Assembly: GCA_947594085.1 (NCBI GenBank)
Contig: CANQEB010000053.1
Location: 1-11,939, forward strand
Direction of reading: 5' to 3'
DNA: 11,939 bases
DNA from: an uncultured Lachnospiraceae bacterium
GTDB taxonomy: Bacteria > Bacillota > Clostridia > Lachnospirales > Lachnospiraceae
Part shown: in pieces, positions 1 to 11,113 of the stretch
Layout: each line of letters starts with the position of its first letter
Position numbering within the stretch: the stretch's first letter is position 1
Notes under the pieces: generated by a model
The model's database searches: none
What the model was told of the DNA's origin: nothing
What the model saw: only the letters and a program-made list of their open reading frames with translations
Position numbers and translations under genes: made by a program

Positions 1-1322
1 CTGTCGACCGGCAGGCTGTCCAGCACAAGAATATCCGGCCCGTTCCCTGCCAGAATCTCCGTGTTCAGCGTGCGCAGCGCGTCGGAGACCGTCACGCCGT
101 CCTCGCCGCTCATGCCGACCTCATAATTCACATAGGTGTCCGGATATTGCGTTTGGAACAGCGTGATCGCCTGCCGAAGCGCGCTCCCCTCGAACAGTGA
201 ATAGACCGTCAATTCCTTCTGCGGCACGCTTGGCGTGTCGGCGAAATACTCATATTTCAACAGCTTGTATTCTCTACTGACGCCATCGATACACACGAGA
301 TAAAAGCACTGATCCAGCACGGTCATCGCGCAGAGTTCCGTCGACGGGGACGCCAGGGTGCCCAGGGTGCCGTCCACGACCTGCTCCACGACGCTTCCGT
401 CCATCGCGTGCGCGAAAATGCCCTCGTTCTTCGTGCCGTAATACAGCCGTCCTTCCTTGTCCTCCGTCATCACAATCGGCACTGTATTGCTGGTCGTGAT
501 TGCATAAGGGTATTCGGATCTGTTCGCATACAAAGCGTCCTCGAGCGCCTCATCGCGCGCGTGCGGCTCCCCCGTCTTAATATCATAGCGCTGAAGCTCC
601 GTACTCGTAAGCACAAGCGCCTCCTGCCCGCATGTCCCGATCATGTCCGCGCTTTTCGCGATCGTGCCCGTGATCTCAGCTGTAGCCGGATCAAGCCTTA
701 CAACCTCACCTGCAACTATCACCCCGATCAGCTGTCCGTCCTGCGCAAAATCCAACACCATGTACGAGTCGTCACAGTCCTTTCTCACCGTCACGTTCCC
801 CTGCGTGTCGAACACGATCACGTAATCCAGGTACTGCGGCGTATTCCCGCCGTCCGAATAGGTTACATCCATTCCGATTGCAACTCCGCCGCCTGACGGA
901 CTCAAATCGATATCTTTGAACCATACCCCATACTCCTCCGGCAGCGCGCCAGTCTGCTCCCAGCTTGCTCCACCGTCCGCGCTATCCCAGATCGTGTAGG
1001 AGGTTTCGCTCTCGCGCGACCCGATGATGCGCAGCGTTCCCTCCGCTGTCCGCACAATATCCATCGGAGTAAAATCCTCCGCCGGCAGGGTAACCTCAGA
1101 CTCGAGGTAACGCCCCATCGCGACGTCGCCCTCCTCGGCGTGAACCACGCTCCCCGGTACCTTCCCGACCAGCTCTGTCGGAAGAGCCTCAACCAGCCCA
1201 CCCGGCAGACTCCGGACGATATCTCCCGGCAGACCGCCCGCGAGCGCTCCCGCCATCGCAAGGCAGACCGCGGAAACACCCGCGCACCACTTTTTCCACA
1301 AACCCTTTCTTGTCATTCTCAT
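1..1322 (-). CDS. Secreted Asp-box/propeller-like protein fused to an extracellular solute-binding domain (partial, C-terminus beyond window)
   Basis: The reverse strand is open from ATG at 1322 to the window edge (440 codons). The start is fixed by GGAGGT at 1329-1334, 6 bases upstream; a second in-frame ATG at 1316 is spaced too far. Residues 1-30 are a basic then hydrophobic signal sequence (MRMTRKGLWKKW...). No convincing lipobox is seen; cleavage could follow the VVHA at 59-62. Residues 114-121 (SADGGASW) are an Asp-box as in BNR/sialidase-type propeller repeats, and the stretch up to about 365 reads like beta-strand repeats. From about 369 (ELTVYSLFEGSALRQAI) begins a family-1 solute-binding domain, with the typical NTEILAGNGPDILVLD segment at about 420-435. 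Such domains capture sugars or other ligands for ABC importers. Here the domain is C-terminal and probably incomplete in the window. The fold assignment of the middle part is inference. The gene diverges from the two-component operon and carries the same putative operator. Confidence 0.75.
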   Translation of the reverse strand, partial: MRMTRKGLWKKWCAGVSAVCLAMAGALAGGLPGDIVRSLPGGLVEALPTELVGKVPGSVVHAEEGDVAMGRYLESEVTLPAEDFTPMDIVRTAEGTLRIIGSRESETSYTIWDSADGGASWEQTGALPEEYGVWFKDIDLSPSGGGVAIGMDVTYSDGGNTPQYLDYVIVFDTQGNVTVRKDCDDSYMVLDFAQDGQLIGVIVAGEVVRLDPATAEITGTIAKSADMIGTCGQEALVLTSTELQRYDIKTGEPHARDEALEDALYANRSEYPYAITTSNTVPIVMTEDKEGRLYYGTKNEGIFAHAMDGSVVEQVVDGTLGTLASPSTELCAMTVLDQCFYLVCIDGVSREYKLLKYEYFADTPSVPQKELTVYSLFEGSALRQAITLFQTQYPDTYVNYEVGMSGEDGVTVSDALRTLNTEILAGNGPDILVLDSLPVD

Positions 1323-1453: not shown

Positions 1454-1487
1454 AGTGTAACCTGTCAGTCTCTAAATTTGCTCTAAA
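1454..1487 (-). promoter_or_regulatory. Putative activator-dependent promoter of the solute-binding gene with tandem TTTAGAG boxes
   Basis: On the reverse strand two perfect TTTAGAG heptamers (1481-1487 and 1470-1476) are separated by 4 bases (CAAA), an 11-bp pitch. Exactly 10 bases separate them from a -10-like TACACT (1454-1459). The position of a normal -35 box reads AGCAAA, a poor match. Repeats replacing the -35 are what PhoB/OmpR-type activators use. The predicted transcript has a leader of about 125 bases before the ATG at 1322. The layout is seen directly; the regulator that binds it is inferred. Confidence 0.6.
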
Positions 1488-1496
1488 TCGGGAAAA

Positions 1497-1796
1497 ATGA
1501 TGAAACCGATAAAAATTTATATCAAAAATTTTGTTTGGCAAGCAGTCGTTCCGACCGCCGATATGATGTACCAATCGGGGCGGATCAGCGGACGCGTCCG
1601 CTCTCTGTGCGACGTCTTTGATCTGCATCCGATGCTCAGCCTGAAGAGCCTGAAGGACAGCAAAATTGCCTGTACCGGAATCTTTGCCGACGCGTAGGAG
1701 CAGGCGTCGGCGGCCATCAGCAGCAACTGTGGCGCGGGGACGTTCGAGCTGATCTATGTACGTTCCGGGATGGATGCGGAAAGCAGAAAAGGGTAA
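1497..1796 (+). pseudogene. Decayed DegV-family (fatty-acid-binding) gene fragment
   Basis: An ATG at 1497 opens 66 codons ending in TAG at 1695-1697. The peptide contains WQAVVPTADMMYQSGRIS and CDVFDLHPMLSLK, then KIACTGIFA. From memory these resemble the central and C-terminal part of DegV proteins (the '...GGRIS' segment followed by 'LHPxLxxKxSK'). Reading on in the same frame past the stop gives more protein-like sequence (FELIYVRSGMDAESRK) until TAA at 1794-1796. Intact DegV proteins are about 280 residues, so both ends and some interior are missing. I see no ribosome site of quality, only AAAAA before the ATG. The fragment lies between two divergent promoters, so it is probably a relic. 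No function is claimed; the family match needs a search. Confidence 0.45.
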
Positions 1797-1805
1797 TTTT
1801 TATAT

Positions 1806-1839
1806 TTTATAGAAAGTTTAGAGATTATTATGCTATACT
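1806..1839 (+). promoter_or_regulatory. Putative autoregulated promoter of the two-component operon
   Basis: TTTATAG (1806-1812), 4 bases (AAAG), TTTAGAG (1817-1823), then exactly 10 bases and a near-perfect -10 TATACT (1834-1839) with an extended TGC just before it. The 17-bp-spaced -35 position reads AGAAAG, which is poor. The layout is the same as upstream of the divergent solute-binding gene, with one mismatch in the distal box. Transcription would start near 1846, giving a leader of about 60 bases before the regulator ATG at 1908. Confidence 0.65.
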
Positions 1840-1907: not shown

Positions 1908-2594
1908 ATGCGCATACTGCTGATCGAAGACGACAAAGAGCTGTGTCGCTCCCTACAATCTATGCTGGAACAACAGGGTTATGATGTGACGGTCTCGCAT
2001 GACGGCGAGGAAGGACTGTTCTATCTTCTGGAAAACGCGCACGATCTGGTGCTCTTGGACCGGATGCTGCCTGAGATGGACGGCATGGAGGTGCTGCGGC
2101 TTGCCCGGAAGCAGCATGTGACCGTCCCGGTCATCTTTCTGACGGCGCTCAGCAGTCTCGACGAACGGATCGACGGCCTCGACTGCGGCGCAGACGACTA
2201 TATTGTCAAGCCTTTCGCGTTCGAGGAATTGATGGCGCGTATTCGCTGCATCTGTCGCCGCCCACAGCGCCTAACCGGGACAGAGGGACTCAGTTTCAGC
2301 GATCTCACCTATGCCCCGGAACAAAATCTGCTTCGCTGTAAGGGGTGCAGCTGTACTCTCTCGCGCCGCGAGGGCGATCTGCTCATGCTCTTTCTGCAGA
2401 ATACCGGGCAGACAATTCCCCGCGCGACGATTCTGACGCGCGTCTGGGGTCCGAGCGCCGACGTCGAGGACGGCAACCTCGACAACTACATCCACTTCCT
2501 GCGCCGCCGGCTCCGCTCGGTTGGCAGCACCGTCGAGCTCCGAACCGTCCGTGGCGTCGGATACCTGCTGTGCGACGACACGCTTCGTGTATAG
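1908..2594 (+). CDS. OmpR/PhoB-family DNA-binding response regulator
   Basis: Cytoplasmic transcription factor of 228 residues, the usual length. The receiver domain (about 1-118) has the acidic pair D8/D9, phospho-acceptor D51 in LLDRMLPEMDG, T79 in VIFLTA and K101 in YIVKPF. A winged-helix domain follows (about 128-225), with SRREGDLLMLFLQNTGQ, then VWG, the recognition-helix region NLDNYIHFLRRRLR and the wing VRGVGYLL. The start is ATG 1908 with AGGAG at 1893-1897. A TTG at 1854 would add 18 residues but has no ribosome site and would lie almost at the predicted transcript start. It is the first gene of an operon with the kinase at 2644 (49-base gap). Family and mechanism are certain; the stimulus and target genes are inferred from the shared TTTAGAG boxes upstream of this gene and of the divergent solute-binding gene. 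Confidence 0.97.
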   Translation: MRILLIEDDKELCRSLQSMLEQQGYDVTVSHDGEEGLFYLLENAHDLVLLDRMLPEMDGMEVLRLARKQHVTVPVIFLTALSSLDERIDGLDCGADDYIVKPFAFEELMARIRCICRRPQRLTGTEGLSFSDLTYAPEQNLLRCKGCSCTLSRREGDLLMLFLQNTGQTIPRATILTRVWGPSADVEDGNLDNYIHFLRRRLRSVGSTVELRTVRGVGYLLCDDTLRV

Positions 2595-2643: not shown

Positions 2644-3996
2644 ATGTTCCGCAAACTACACCTTCAGCTCACCGCCCTGTGCATCGCGATCACCGGAATT
2701 GTCCTCACGGTTCTGTCGTGTATCTGCCTGTACATTTCCGAGTCCGGCATCCGCAACCAGGCATATTCCTCTTTCCTCGCCGAGCTCAACACCATGTACC
2801 AGAATCTGGCACAGCAGACCTCTCTATCCCACACCTGGGTCCGACAGATGGAACACAATCATCAGTTTTATCTTCGGATCACTGACAACGGCTCGCCGCT
2901 CTTTCTTCAGGAGCTCGACAACACTCCGATTCCGCAAAAGTTCTGGGACAGTGCCGAGGAAATAGCCAGATCCGTCTGTGGTCTTGACCTGCAAAAGCCC
3001 GGCAGCCTCAGTGTTCTGACGCGGCACGGGGAGTTCCCGTTGACGTGTGACGACGAACGTTACAACGCCTCGGTCTGCCTGATTCCGCGCGACAACGGAT
3101 ACATCGGCATCACGGTGCTGCAGCCTCTCGCCCCGATGGAATCCCGCATTCACCGGCAGCGCCTTGCGTTCCTGCTCGCGGATTTGACCGCGCTTGCATT
3201 ACTCGGCGTCTTCTTCTGGCATTTCATCAAAAGAATACTCCACCCGCTCATCGAGAACAGAAAAAAACAGATGCAGTTTGTCGCATCTGCTTCACATGAG
3301 CTGCGCTCGCCGCTCACAGTGATATTGAATCATACAGCCGCCGTGAGAAGCGGCGCAATGAAAAGAGATTCCCACTTTCTGGATGTGATCGATTCCGAGG
3401 GAAAACGAATGTCCCGCCTGATCTCGGACATGCTGCAGCTCGCGAATGCGGACGACCGAAGCTGGTCAATCCAGCCGGCGCCAGTCGAGATGGACACACT
3501 GCTTCTGCAGGTTTGGGAACATTTTGAACCTGCGGCGATCTCCCACGGTCTGCACTGGGAAATTTCACTTCCTGACGTCCCTGTGCCGCGCTGCGTCTGC
3601 GACGGAGAGCGCATTCGTCAGCTGCTCTCTATCCTGATCGAGAACGCCTTCAGCTACACGCCGTCCGGCGGCCTGGTCAAGCTTTCACTGTCCGTGCCTT
3701 CGCAGGCCGGAAAATCCGCCGCATATATGCCTTTGTCCCGACGCTTCACGCACCGCGACTGTCTCTGTATCGCTGTCAGCGACAACGGACCGGGTATCCC
3801 AGATGATCAGAAGGAAGCGGTCTTCGAACGCTTCCGAAGACTCGACCGTTCCCGCACAGACAAATCGCACTTCGGACTCGGCCTTTGTATCGCTCAGGAG
3901 ATCGCGCGCCTCCATCACGGGCAGATCTCCCTCACAGACACGCCGGGCGGAGGAGCAACCTTTACCCTCATGCTGCCGATTTCCATGAACGCCTGA
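2644..3996 (+). CDS. Membrane sensor histidine kinase, partner of the upstream regulator
   Basis: 450 residues. Membrane segments at about 9-30 and 173-195 flank an extracellular sensor region of about 140 residues that I do not recognise. The second membrane segment runs into the dimerisation helix with only about 22 residues between, so there is no room for a HAMP domain. The H-box is SASHELRSPLT with phospho-accepting H218. The ATP-binding domain has the N-box at N334 (LIENAFSYTPSGG), G1 with D380 (DNGPGIP), an F-box (VFERFRRLDRS) and G2 at 411-414 (GLGL), ending with GGGATFTLMLP. All catalytic boxes are intact. The ribosome site GGGAGG at 2632-2637 lies inside a palindrome. It most likely phosphorylates D51 of the regulator encoded 49 bases upstream. 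A ligand linked to the neighbouring binding protein is possible but only inferred. Confidence 0.96.
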   Translation: MFRKLHLQLTALCIAITGIVLTVLSCICLYISESGIRNQAYSSFLAELNTMYQNLAQQTSLSHTWVRQMEHNHQFYLRITDNGSPLFLQELDNTPIPQKFWDSAEEIARSVCGLDLQKPGSLSVLTRHGEFPLTCDDERYNASVCLIPRDNGYIGITVLQPLAPMESRIHRQRLAFLLADLTALALLGVFFWHFIKRILHPLIENRKKQMQFVASASHELRSPLTVILNHTAAVRSGAMKRDSHFLDVIDSEGKRMSRLISDMLQLANADDRSWSIQPAPVEMDTLLLQVWEHFEPAAISHGLHWEISLPDVPVPRCVCDGERIRQLLSILIENAFSYTPSGGLVKLSLSVPSQAGKSAAYMPLSRRFTHRDCLCIAVSDNGPGIPDDQKEAVFERFRRLDRSRTDKSHFGLGLCIAQEIARLHHGQISLTDTPGGGATFTLMLPISMNA

Positions 3997-8061: not shown

Positions 8062-10233
8062 ATGCGGTTTCTGAAGAAATGGTTCTTATCTTGTATCACG
8101 ATTTTGATTCTTCTGTCTGTGTCACGGACACCTCTTACTGTGTCTGCCGCCACGAAACCGGTCAGCATCACTACATGTAAGCTCACGTCCACAAACATGG
8201 TCCAGGTCACAGCTACAGCCGGGAACACTCAAAAAATTTATGGCGATAAATTCTACCTTTTTGCGCTTACGTTTTCCGAATCCGGCATCACACAAAAATC
8301 TATGCCTCTCTCTTCTGTGAACAAGGCGAAGAAGACCACTTTTTACGTAAAGCTGAATAATGCCAAGGAATCCACCCTACTGTATTCCAAATTTGTGATT
8401 GCCTCAAAAAAACAAAATGGTACATACAAGGCGATCAGCAATACAAAATATATCTCCAATCCCAGAAAGATCGCAAAGTATACCTACGCTTTTCCTAAGG
8501 CGACATCAAAAAAAGGCTTGCAGGTGAGTCCGAACATGCTCGAGGACGCGATTGACCTGAACGTCCGCCATTCTGCTCTGAATATCGTTTTCTCAGAATT
8601 ACTCCCGACTGCGGCCGAGCGGAACAATACCTTCTCGGTATCTTATAAATATCACGGAAAGACCTATTGGTTCCGCAAAGCCCTTGTCTACGGCTATGAC
8701 GCACAGCTCACCGCGCTGAAGGAGAACAATGTTGTGGTGAGCGCAATTTTGCTGCTCGGATGGCGCGATGATCTCAAGTCTCTGATTTATCCGTCTGGAC
8801 GCACGCCCGGTCATGCTTTCTATGCCTGGAATACATCTAATGCCGCGGCACGCGAACAGCTTCAGGCGACACTCTCATTCCTCGGCTCACGCTATGGGAC
8901 TTCCTCGGCAGAACATGGGCGCATCGTCAACTGGATTGTCGGAAATGAGGTAAACAATTATAGCGTCTATAATTATGCCGGGCAGAAGACGCTCGCGCAG
9001 TACGCAAAAATCTATGCGGATGCGTTCCGTATGACATACAATACCATGACGAGCATATATGCCAACGCCCGCGTGTACATTTCCCTTGACCATCTGTGGA
9101 ACACGCACATAAGCGGCTGCTTCACTTCCAGAGAGATGCTGGAGCGATTTGTCTACGCCCTCAAAAAGCGAGGAAATATCAATTGGAATCTCGCCTTCCA
9201 CCCCTACGGTTCCCCGTTGACGGAGCCAAAATTCTGGTCAAATGTGAATGGGCAGGCGATACAGTCACTGTCATCCCCTGTCATCAGCATGAAAAATATT
9301 AATGTGCTGACCTCATACATCCGGGAGAATTATGGTTCCAAGACAAGGATCATTCTCTCGGAGCAGGGCTATACCTCCGTGCGCCACTTTGCTACCTCTG
9401 CTTCCGGAAACAAAACCGACCCCAATCATTCTGTGTCAAAAACAGATGCCCAGAAGGAGCAGTCGGCAGCCATCGCCTACAGCTACTACCTGACAGAGGC
9501 AGACGATATGATTGATTCCTTTATCATGAACCGTCATGTGGACAATCAGATCGAAATCGACCAGGGGCTTGACCTTGGACTTTGGACCACCGATTCCTCC
9601 AGCGGTCTTCCGGAATGGGCTGACACAAAGAAGGATTCCTGGCAAGTATTCAAATACATGGATTCCAACAAAGCGGCCAGTGTGACTTCAAACGCGCTTT
9701 CCGTGATCGGTATCAATAACTGGACCGATGTCATTCCCAACTACAACAAAAAGCTGTACCGCAAAACCGTCTATGCTTCTTCTGCGTTGAGGCAGGTAAA
9801 TGGCTACGAAAAGTCTGCAGTTATCCCTGCAAATTGGAACCCTTACGGAGCCGTCACGACCGGGTCCAGAGGAACCGACACGTTTTCTGCTTATCATGAC
9901 AACCGCCGGAACCGCAACAGTCTCTGGGGATTTTCCCAGACGTTAAGCCCCAAGGCAGACTTCTCTTCCGCACCGTGCTTCTATACGACATTAAATGTAC
10001 ATGGAGCTTCTGCCGCTGAAGTCCAAATCACAATACGTTTCTTCAGCGGCAAAAAAATTCTGGAATGCAGCCGGACAATACCTTGCAACATGTCTGTAAA
10101 GCTCGGTGTGTCGCTTGAAAAATGGAAAGGCAAAAATTCCGTGCAAAAAATTCAGGTTCTGGTCTCTCCCGTGAGGGGAAAATGGGCCGATAATGCTTAC
10201 ATTATAATGACCACGCCTGTGTGCGGAAATTGA
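8062..10233 (+). CDS. Large secreted DUF5722-type protein, probable glycosidase
   Basis: 723 residues. The start is ATG 8062 with GGGGAGG at 8049-8055; a TTG at 8047 overlaps that ribosome site and is rejected. Residues 1-29 are a signal peptide (MRFLKKWFL..., cut near VSA-A), with no lipobox, so the protein is secreted. Residues about 31-150 look like a beta-sandwich. From about 151 (KGLQVSPNMLEDAIDLNVRH) to about 550 comes a barrel-like region that I recognise as DUF5722, from memory of the family. It contains NWIVGNEVNN with E296 and RIILSEQGYTS with E434. These are 138 residues apart, in the 'NE ... E' arrangement of acid/base and nucleophile in clan-A glycosidases. FHPYGSP lies between them. 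The last 170 residues look like a second beta-rich domain, possibly carbohydrate-binding. Substrate unknown. The gene is Lys- and Thr-rich with AT-richer codons than its neighbours. Family assignment is moderate; activity is inference. Confidence 0.72.
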   Translation: MRFLKKWFLSCITILILLSVSRTPLTVSAATKPVSITTCKLTSTNMVQVTATAGNTQKIYGDKFYLFALTFSESGITQKSMPLSSVNKAKKTTFYVKLNNAKESTLLYSKFVIASKKQNGTYKAISNTKYISNPRKIAKYTYAFPKATSKKGLQVSPNMLEDAIDLNVRHSALNIVFSELLPTAAERNNTFSVSYKYHGKTYWFRKALVYGYDAQLTALKENNVVVSAILLLGWRDDLKSLIYPSGRTPGHAFYAWNTSNAAAREQLQATLSFLGSRYGTSSAEHGRIVNWIVGNEVNNYSVYNYAGQKTLAQYAKIYADAFRMTYNTMTSIYANARVYISLDHLWNTHISGCFTSREMLERFVYALKKRGNINWNLAFHPYGSPLTEPKFWSNVNGQAIQSLSSPVISMKNINVLTSYIRENYGSKTRIILSEQGYTSVRHFATSASGNKTDPNHSVSKTDAQKEQSAAIAYSYYLTEADDMIDSFIMNRHVDNQIEIDQGLDLGLWTTDSSSGLPEWADTKKDSWQVFKYMDSNKAASVTSNALSVIGINNWTDVIPNYNKKLYRKTVYASSALRQVNGYEKSAVIPANWNPYGAVTTGSRGTDTFSAYHDNRRNRNSLWGFSQTLSPKADFSSAPCFYTTLNVHGASAAEVQITIRFFSGKKILECSRTIPCNMSVKLGVSLEKWKGKNSVQKIQVLVSPVRGKWADNAYIIMTTPVCGN

Positions 10234-10260: not shown

Positions 10261-10998
10261 TCACTGTAATAACTGCGATATCGGCACCGATACATAGCCC
10301 TGGCGCCGGAGGTCCTCAATAATAGCCTCCAGCGCTTGCGCTGTGTTTTTGGCACCGCCATGCATTCGGACGATCGCCCCGGCGTCAAGCTGTTCACTGC
10401 GTGTCACCTTGTTGACAATCGATTCTATCCCGTAATCCTTCCAGTCCTCAGAATCCACGCTCCACCGCACCGGCAAAAGCCCTTCTGAAGCTGTGATTCC
10501 GACCAGCACGCTGTCATACTCCCCATAGGGTGCCCGAAACAGCTTCATTTTGGTCCCAGTCAGTTTTTGTACCTTATCGCTTGTCTCCTCCAGTATCGTT
10601 CGGACCTCCCTGGCGGACTTTTCCGTCATGCTCTCACAGTCAGACCCGCGGTTTCCGATATCATGTCCTTCGTCTACAATACGTTTTGTCTCCTCCGGGT
10701 GCCCGTCTACCCAGTTCGCTGTCACAAAAAATGTAGCCTTGGCTCCACACTTTCCGAGAATATTCAAAATTGACTCGATACTTCCGCTACCTTCTGTCAC
10801 ATCGAAGCTTAACGCAAGCGCGCCATTCTTCCCTTGCACACAGTTGATCGGCATCGTCTGTGCATTGACCGCCCCATTCACTGCCATGCTTTTTTGGTTT
10901 GCAAGATATGCCCCGAAAAAAAACACGAAGGAACACAGGCACAAAAGCCCGAGTCCCCTCAAACGATACCACGCAAAACTGATCTCTTTCTCCATCAT
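10261..10998 (-). CDS. Membrane-anchored NodB-type polysaccharide deacetylase homologue with an altered metal site
   Basis: 245 residues from ATG 10998. A start at 11067 would add 23 residues but has no ribosome site; the chosen one has a GGGGCGGG stretch just upstream and remains uncertain. Residues about 13-33 are a single membrane anchor with the catalytic domain outside. NodB-fold motifs: motif 1 LSFDVTEG (D66) in the FD-x-x-x-G form seen in PdaB-like members; motif 3 RAPYGEYD (R155-P157); motif 4 VDSEDW (D185-W186); motif 5 VRMHGG (H213). Motif 2, normally G-H-x-I-G-N-H-x-x-x-H, is GHDIGNRGSDC here, so the two metal-ligand histidines are R117 and C121. Family members remove N- or O-acetyl groups from peptidoglycan or exopolysaccharide using a metal held by D-H-H. 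This one probably does not bind the metal in the usual way and may be inactive or altered. It converges on the DUF5722-type gene. Confidence 0.88.
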   Translation of the reverse strand: MMEKEISFAWYRLRGLGLLCLCSFVFFFGAYLANQKSMAVNGAVNAQTMPINCVQGKNGALALSFDVTEGSGSIESILNILGKCGAKATFFVTANWVDGHPEETKRIVDEGHDIGNRGSDCESMTEKSAREVRTILEETSDKVQKLTGTKMKLFRAPYGEYDSVLVGITASEGLLPVRWSVDSEDWKDYGIESIVNKVTRSEQLDAGAIVRMHGGAKNTAQALEAIIEDLRRQGYVSVPISQLLQ

Positions 10999-11113
10999 GT
11001 TTGACCCGCCCCAGGTGTTCTTCTTTAAACTATATGAGAATTTACGGGATAACATGCAATTGTCCATGCCTGTGGCTTTTTACTTTTTATTACAAATTCA
11101 TTTCCTGTCCGTT

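Follow-up and report, generated by a model that had tools for sequence, protein, structure and literature searches.

The window, a stretch of 11,939 bases of Lachnospiraceae DNA, contains a two-component operon and, transcribed away from it, the beginning of a gene for a solute-binding protein (SBP). Two matching pairs of heptamer repeats, each followed by a -10 element, lie between them. The features are as follows.

1..1322, minus strand: 5' part of the SBP gene; the contig begins inside the gene, whose relatives encode solute-binding proteins.
1454..1487, minus strand: putative operator and -10 of the divergent SBP operon, TTTAGAG-N4-TTTAGAG-N10-TACACT; corresponding sites lie before the SBP genes of relatives.
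1500..1796, plus strand: disrupted coding sequence of some 300 bases with a weak likeness to DegV; no component of the switch.
1806..1839, plus strand: putative operator and -10 of the two-component operon, TTTATAG-N4-TTTAGAG-N10-TATACT; corresponding sites lie before the regulator gene of relatives.
1908..2594, plus strand: OmpR/PhoB-type response regulator with receiver and winged helix (Pfam Response_reg, Trans_reg_C); presumed ligand of both operators.
2644..3996, plus strand: sensor histidine kinase (Pfam HisKA, HATPase_c), directly downstream of the regulator.

Both PF00072 and PF00486 score above their cut-offs in the regulator, which places it among the OmpR/PhoB response regulators, and its recognition-helix region reads GNLDNYIHFLRRRL. 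None of the 25 best of 100 NCBIfam matches reached its equivalog cut-off. An identity with PhoB of the phosphate regulon was rejected, with TIGR02154 at 170.2 bits against a cut-off of 296.2. The start of the regulator was read as ATG at 1908; the TTG at 1854, where a mechanical ORF begins, was taken as over-extended because it sits in the leader. Likewise, the SBP start was read as ATG at 1322 on the minus strand, preceded by AGGAGG, and the mechanical ORF start at 1628 on this strand was taken as an over-extension because it runs through the operator. Elsewhere in the window, a DUF5722 protein (PF18989) of 723 amino acids is found at 8062-10230 and a polysaccharide deacetylase at 10264-11067.

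The minus-strand site (1487-1454) reads TTTAGAG CAAA TTTAGAG ACTGACAGGT TACACT, and the plus-strand site (1806-1839) reads TTTATAG AAAG TTTAGAG ATTATTATGC TATACT. The heptamer is TTTAGAG in three of its four copies and TTTATAG in the other, and the shared layout of heptamer, N4, heptamer, N10 and TACACT or TATACT that the first-pass annotation had described is present to the letter. It had also called the -35 poor in each promoter; with a 17-base spacer, the hexamers at this position are indeed AGAAAG in the operon promoter and AGCAAA in the divergent one. A TG at 1831-1832 gives the two-component operon an extended -10, and the SBP promoter of the window has no TG before its -10. Two features of the class II activator sites of OmpR/PhoB proteins are found in the window: tandem direct repeats at an 11-bp pitch, and a site that stands where the -35 would be, with a fixed spacing to the -10.

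The annotation had seen no other TTTAGAG pair in the window; not even a single further TTTAGAG or TTTATAG heptamer exists on either strand of the 11,939 bases. The joint pattern gave 0 matches in 200 dinucleotide-preserving shuffles. The genome search that the annotation had proposed returned only the two window sites from the source assembly (2.42 Mb, 71% complete), even at 3 mismatches, while the reversed-pattern control gave 1 match in the same assembly at 3 mismatches. The two matching repeat pairs are real and well beyond chance. Since the heptamers are short and AT-rich, one may still ask whether they are a chance likeness of AT-rich promoters, or one promoter duplicated without function. 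Given the empty shuffles, the single spacing conserved over many loci and the near confinement of the sites to genus genomes with the regulator (both below), the probability of this is negligible.

The stretch between the two operators differs among relatives. In the window, the first 50-60 bases match the left flank of an element that relatives carry (L006: 79% over 53 bases). The fragment at 1500-1796 aligns with a DegV protein by BLASTP at 26% over 34 amino acids (E 0.002 for that single comparison), and neither of its pieces has a Pfam match, DegV (PF02645) included. Because the left edge matches the flank of the element and the rest is weakly DegV-like, the relic seems to be a lineage-specific replacement of the element. 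L007 has no insert, and 24 bases separate its two sites. In L003, L004, L005, L006 and L009, 397-487 bases between the operators hold the small element, as does L008 in part, as far as its contig reaches. The element encodes a minus-strand ORF of 27-28 amino acids (read in L003, L005, L006, L008 and L009; two allow a longer upstream start), and the peptides of L003 and L006 match Hol_Tox (PF16935) at E 1.5e-4, just under the cut-off. By eye, the other strand carries a TTTGACA...TATAAT-like promoter and a hairpin, and from its sequence the element looks like a type I toxin-antitoxin pair. A search of the window, L003, L006 and L009 at the Rfam gathering score returned only a tRNA, in L003.

Conservation was examined upstream of related regulators, using the best 80 of at least 556 loci (53-93% identity; Lachnospiraceae and other Clostridia). 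The 250 bases upstream of these 80 genes were scanned for TTTAGAG-Nx-TTTAGAG at 12 or more of 14 matches, with gaps of 0-12. At gap 4, pairs were found in 53 of the 80 on the regulator's strand and in 38 on the opposite strand, compared with 0.4 in shuffled upstream regions. The gap is specific, as the next-best one reached 14/80. A control with the pattern reversed but not complemented gave 17/80 at gap 4, and we account for this by the natural TTTAGAGATTT context, which contains the reversed box. Including the window, the 81 loci collapse to 59 at 85% regulator identity. A site with 12 of 14 matches lies within 260 bases upstream of the regulator in 54 of the 81 loci (41 of the 59), and 27 (18 of the 59) have none.

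In these 41 non-redundant regulator promoters, the best -10 is 10 bases from the site in 29, ties counted, and the -10 at positions 29-34 is of TATAAT type. Positions that played no part in the choice of sites are also conserved: A8 in 33, A19 in 31, T21 in 34 and T24 in 32, together with the TG before the -10 (T26 in 33, G27 in 31). The consensus of the 41 is TTTAGAGAnTnTTTAGAGATTnnTnTGnTATAAT. The conserved core, TTTAGAGA, is longer than in the first-pass annotation, and most relatives have TG ahead of the -10. That annotation had named a lack of heptamer conservation in related genomes as evidence against itself, and the heptamers are conserved. No TTGACA occupies the -35 place in the 41 promoters, where a mean of 0.88 of 6 bases match. 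A third in-phase heptamer was considered, but its generality was rejected: the commonest upstream offset is indeed 11, yet only 9 of 116 sites have a heptamer there at 5 or more of 7 matches (6 of 116 for the next offset). Such a heptamer is present at some SBP promoters, e.g. L146 and L155.

Two similarly built promoters with a preferred, fixed spacing to the -10 would also be expected if the heptamers were the -35 element of a promoter for an alternative sigma factor. We regard this as highly improbable. The -10 begins 10 bases after the end of heptamer 2 and 21 after that of heptamer 1, whereas spacers usually have 16-18 bases; the -10 is of TATAAT type, mostly with TG; and the element is a tandem repeat.

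The tie between site and regulator was then evaluated in a panel of 47 genomes of the same genus, where a site is defined as at most 2 mismatches to the full pattern. A regulator match at E 1e-60 is found in 31 of the 47, with 28 at 64% identity or above and 3 only at 44-45%. Sites are found in 25 of the 28 genomes with a regulator at 64% or above compared with 1 of the 19 others (Fisher P 5e-9), the 64% line having been drawn after the match list was seen, with the three genomes at 44-45% counted as without. The single site among the 19 lies at a contig end, and the three exceptions with the regulator (G004, G027, G029) have sites at 3 mismatches. From the 43 sites in the panel, 19 precede an SBP gene, 17 a response regulator (one of them a 34% paralogue) and 3 a permease gene, 2 are at contig ends and 2 are elsewhere; identical 34-mers common to two genomes were classed from one locus, and the G037 gene labelled PERM1 in this classification is PERM2 (83%). 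In total, 38 of the 43 precede regulator, SBP or permease genes of this module. The motif had been predicted to belong to this regulator with the SBP gene as a target, and the two counts (25/28 versus 1/19 genomes, 38/43 sites) bear this out. Operator-like sites at 2 mismatches near truB and pnp (names by eye; L149:4009 and L152:4026, in genomes G016 and G023) are possibly an extra target or chance.

Among the 28 genus regulator genes, 22 are preceded within 300 bases by a site of at most 3 mismatches. The remaining six (G004, G006, G007, G029, G033, G046) have none at this threshold, so autoregulation would not be universal; each of the six has a site before its SBP gene.

The association was also approached from the motif alone. 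In 196 genomes of the order searched at no more than 1 mismatch, matches occurred in 3 (the window's own, G072 and G227), and the control gave none; since imperfect sites are missed, this search gives no measure of the frequency of the system. All four sites in these three genomes precede this regulator or the binding protein. The G072 site precedes a regulator 48% identical to that of the window, and those of G227 lie before a regulator (55% identical) and before an SBP gene. The helix is identical in 76 of the 81 regulator loci (the best 80 of at least 556, and the window), a figure partly built in because LDNYIHFL was one of the six search words. This circularity is eased by the motif-only matches, as the G072 and G227 regulators both carry GNLDNYIHFLRRRL.

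A diverged copy of the module exists in the genus. Boxes of the form TTTAGAT/ATTAGAT, with the same pitch and the same 10-base spacing, are found in G001, G008, G013, G014, G015, G027, G030 and G032, with G027 and G032 carrying the main regulator as well. In G001, G008, G013, G014, G015 and G027 the diverged sites lie between a regulator of about 44% identity and the permease-1 gene, which is followed by the permease-2 and fusion-protein genes in G001 and G013, the two examined. The helix of the diverged regulator is RNVDNFIYLLRNHL (G001, G013, G014, G015, G027). The diverged regulator goes with a diverged box, the change in the last base of the box being accompanied by one in the last part of the helix. 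A separate observation concerns a paralogue in G024 (L139:4087, minus strand; 34% identical, with a different helix), which has TTTTGAG-N4-TTTTGAG-N10-TATAAT before its gene; a similar site despite a differing helix is a point against a regulator-specific reading.

Another transcription factor might bind the repeats and control both operons, while the linked regulator acts elsewhere. The few sites away from the module and the regulator genes without a site are what such a factor would leave, yet the motif and the regulator co-occur across the genus genomes, the motif-only search leads back to this regulator, and the diverged regulator accompanies the diverged box. We therefore consider this reading very unlikely.

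Rearranged loci are natural experiments in which the sites accompany separated genes in several cases, with exceptions (the six regulators without a site). The two-component and SBP promoters are parted by about 2.4 kb in L177 (G017; the intruder a transposase by appearance), about 7.0 kb in L180 (G011; a sugar-ABC operon by appearance) and about 3.3 kb of other genes in L184 (G227), with the sites kept in all three. Two genomes, G026 and G037, have the permease-2 and membrane-fusion genes at a different place from SBP-PERM1, and there a separate site accompanies them (L118, L158). The SBP gene separates the kinase gene from the regulator gene in L031 and L056; the kinase has its own site, and the permease operon adjoining the regulator has another. 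The same site type thus recurs before the same genes in relatives, often even when these are separated, and so the repeat pairs are very probably the regulator's own sites. In some loci (L080, L174, L177, L180) a second SBP gene directly follows the first or lies near it, which suggests duplication of the binding protein.

Because the window contig ends inside the SBP gene, the rest of the target operon is known from relatives only. In those fully examined the order is SBP, permease 1, permease 2, membrane-fusion protein and a protein here called X, with variations. Pfam assigns SBP_bac_1/8 to the C-terminal half of the SBP (L148), BPD_transp_1 to both permeases and Biotin_lipoyl_2 to the fusion protein; the permeases are of the MalF/MalG type, the fusion protein is HlyD/MacA-like and X is a MacB/YknZ-like membrane protein. 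Complete SBP relatives (n = 62) have 725-897 amino acids. A model of the SBP (L007 protein; pLDDT 86) has a beta-rich N-terminal part, which may be propeller-like as judged from the strand pattern only, and a C-terminal domain that matches sugar-binding proteins. X gave weak MacB_PCD matches below the cut-off in 4 of 7 proteins scanned. Its model, built from 17 sequences (pLDDT 87), resembles three known structures, a non-canonical S. pneumoniae ABC transporter, the extracellular domain of YknZ, and MacB, with TM-scores of 0.3-0.4 over the whole chain and 0.61 over the YknZ domain. The operon resembles exporters of the MacAB/YknXYZ type in having a membrane-fusion protein and an X whose predicted extracytoplasmic domain matches YknZ/MacB. 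It differs from them in that a sugar-type SBP and two permeases of the MalF/MalG type accompany these components, and no ATPase gene was seen in the operons examined in relatives. As a guess, the substrate or signal could be an oligosaccharide or a cell-envelope compound.

The two promoter types were compared in the 28 non-redundant loci, out of the 59 clusters, that had both sites above the thresholds. The boxes of the target are better than the regulator's own in 13, worse in 3 and equal in 12 (Wilcoxon P 0.04), and its -10 is worse in 16, better in 1 and equal in 11 (P 0.0005). TG precedes the -10 in 23 of the 28 regulator promoters and 24 of the 28 target promoters. The window fits the pattern, with perfect boxes and TACACT for the SBP, and one imperfect box and TGCTATACT for the regulator. 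From these comparisons, the regulator promoter would be leaky and autoregulated and the target promoter more dependent on the activator.

The same numbers bear on the direction of control. The sites could be operators of this regulator and yet repress, the protein sitting on extended -10 promoters until a change in phosphorylation releases them. The operator does overlap the promoter, and with TG so frequent in both sets such promoters could fire without a -35. On the other hand, stronger target boxes (13 versus 3) joined to weaker -10s (16 versus 1) are expected under activator dependence, the SBP promoter of the window has no TG, and the preferred 10-bp distance with a missing -35 matches activation at CiaR promoters (PMC3091779). 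Repression is thus unlikely.

We conclude, with a probability of about 85%, that the repeat pairs are operators of the regulator at 1908-2594 through which it would activate its own operon and the divergent transporter operon; the interpretation of the first-pass annotation is supported at the level of sequence comparison. Binding, autoregulation, dependence on phosphorylation, activation rather than repression and the signal are what we infer. In the proposed mechanism, the partner kinase would phosphorylate the OmpR/PhoB-type regulator, which would then bind each site head-to-tail as a dimer with one subunit per heptamer, the 11-bp pitch placing both subunits on one face of the helix. The dimer would lie 10 bp above the -10, where a -35 element is missing, and recruit RNA polymerase with sigma-A. 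Activation of its own operon would be positive feedback, and activation of the divergent operon would raise the SBP, the two permeases, the membrane-fusion protein and the MacB/YknZ-like protein.

The kind of site is known and ordinary. The pho box of PhoB consists of 7-bp direct repeats with 4-bp AT-rich gaps at an 11-bp pitch, which replace the -35 about 10 bp from the -10; PhoB is also autoregulated, and its repeat sequence differs from TTTAGAG. The repeat length, the pitch, the place of the -35 and the distance of about 10 bp above the -10 are shared with the sites described here, whereas no phosphate genes were recognised among the targets. CiaR of streptococci, also of the OmpR family, activates promoters through TTTAAG-N5-TTTAAG and is reported at 15 promoters, and in its search pattern the -10 follows the last repeat after ten bases (PMC3091779). 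CiaR and the present regulator share the family, a direct repeat of 11-bp pitch ending in AG and the ten bases to the -10; they differ in the box (TTTAAG-N5 against TTTAGAG-N4), in the recognition helix (VVEVYVSKVRKKL against GNLDNYIHFLRRRL) and in the target set (15 promoters against a small, transporter-centred one) (PMC3091779). Neither the helix VVEVYVSKVRKKL nor the TTTAAG-N5-TTTAAG box was found here, and the regulator was rejected as a CiaR on these grounds. No paper recognisably on TTTAGAG/CTCTAAA as a regulator site was found among the open-licence papers listed, judged by titles and the starts of abstracts. What is new here is the motif, its regulon and the module that it targets.

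A wider proposal is tentative, and we lean against it at present: the operator may mark an undescribed, widely spread clostridial sensor-transporter module, i.e., a dedicated two-component system with a hybrid transport complex, in which the SBP is perhaps part of the sensor, targets have strong operators and weak -10s while the regulator gene has the reverse, and operator and helix have co-diverged in the second copy. If the difference in operators and -10s holds, the system would keep a basal level of itself and switch the transporter sharply. The diverged regulators and their boxes are a natural pair for studying recognition. The analysis assigns an operator and a small regulon to a hitherto unassigned two-component system found in many gut Lachnospiraceae and their relatives, yields a pattern with enough specificity to locate the system by its operator alone, and indicates an odd transporter operon as its probable controlled target.
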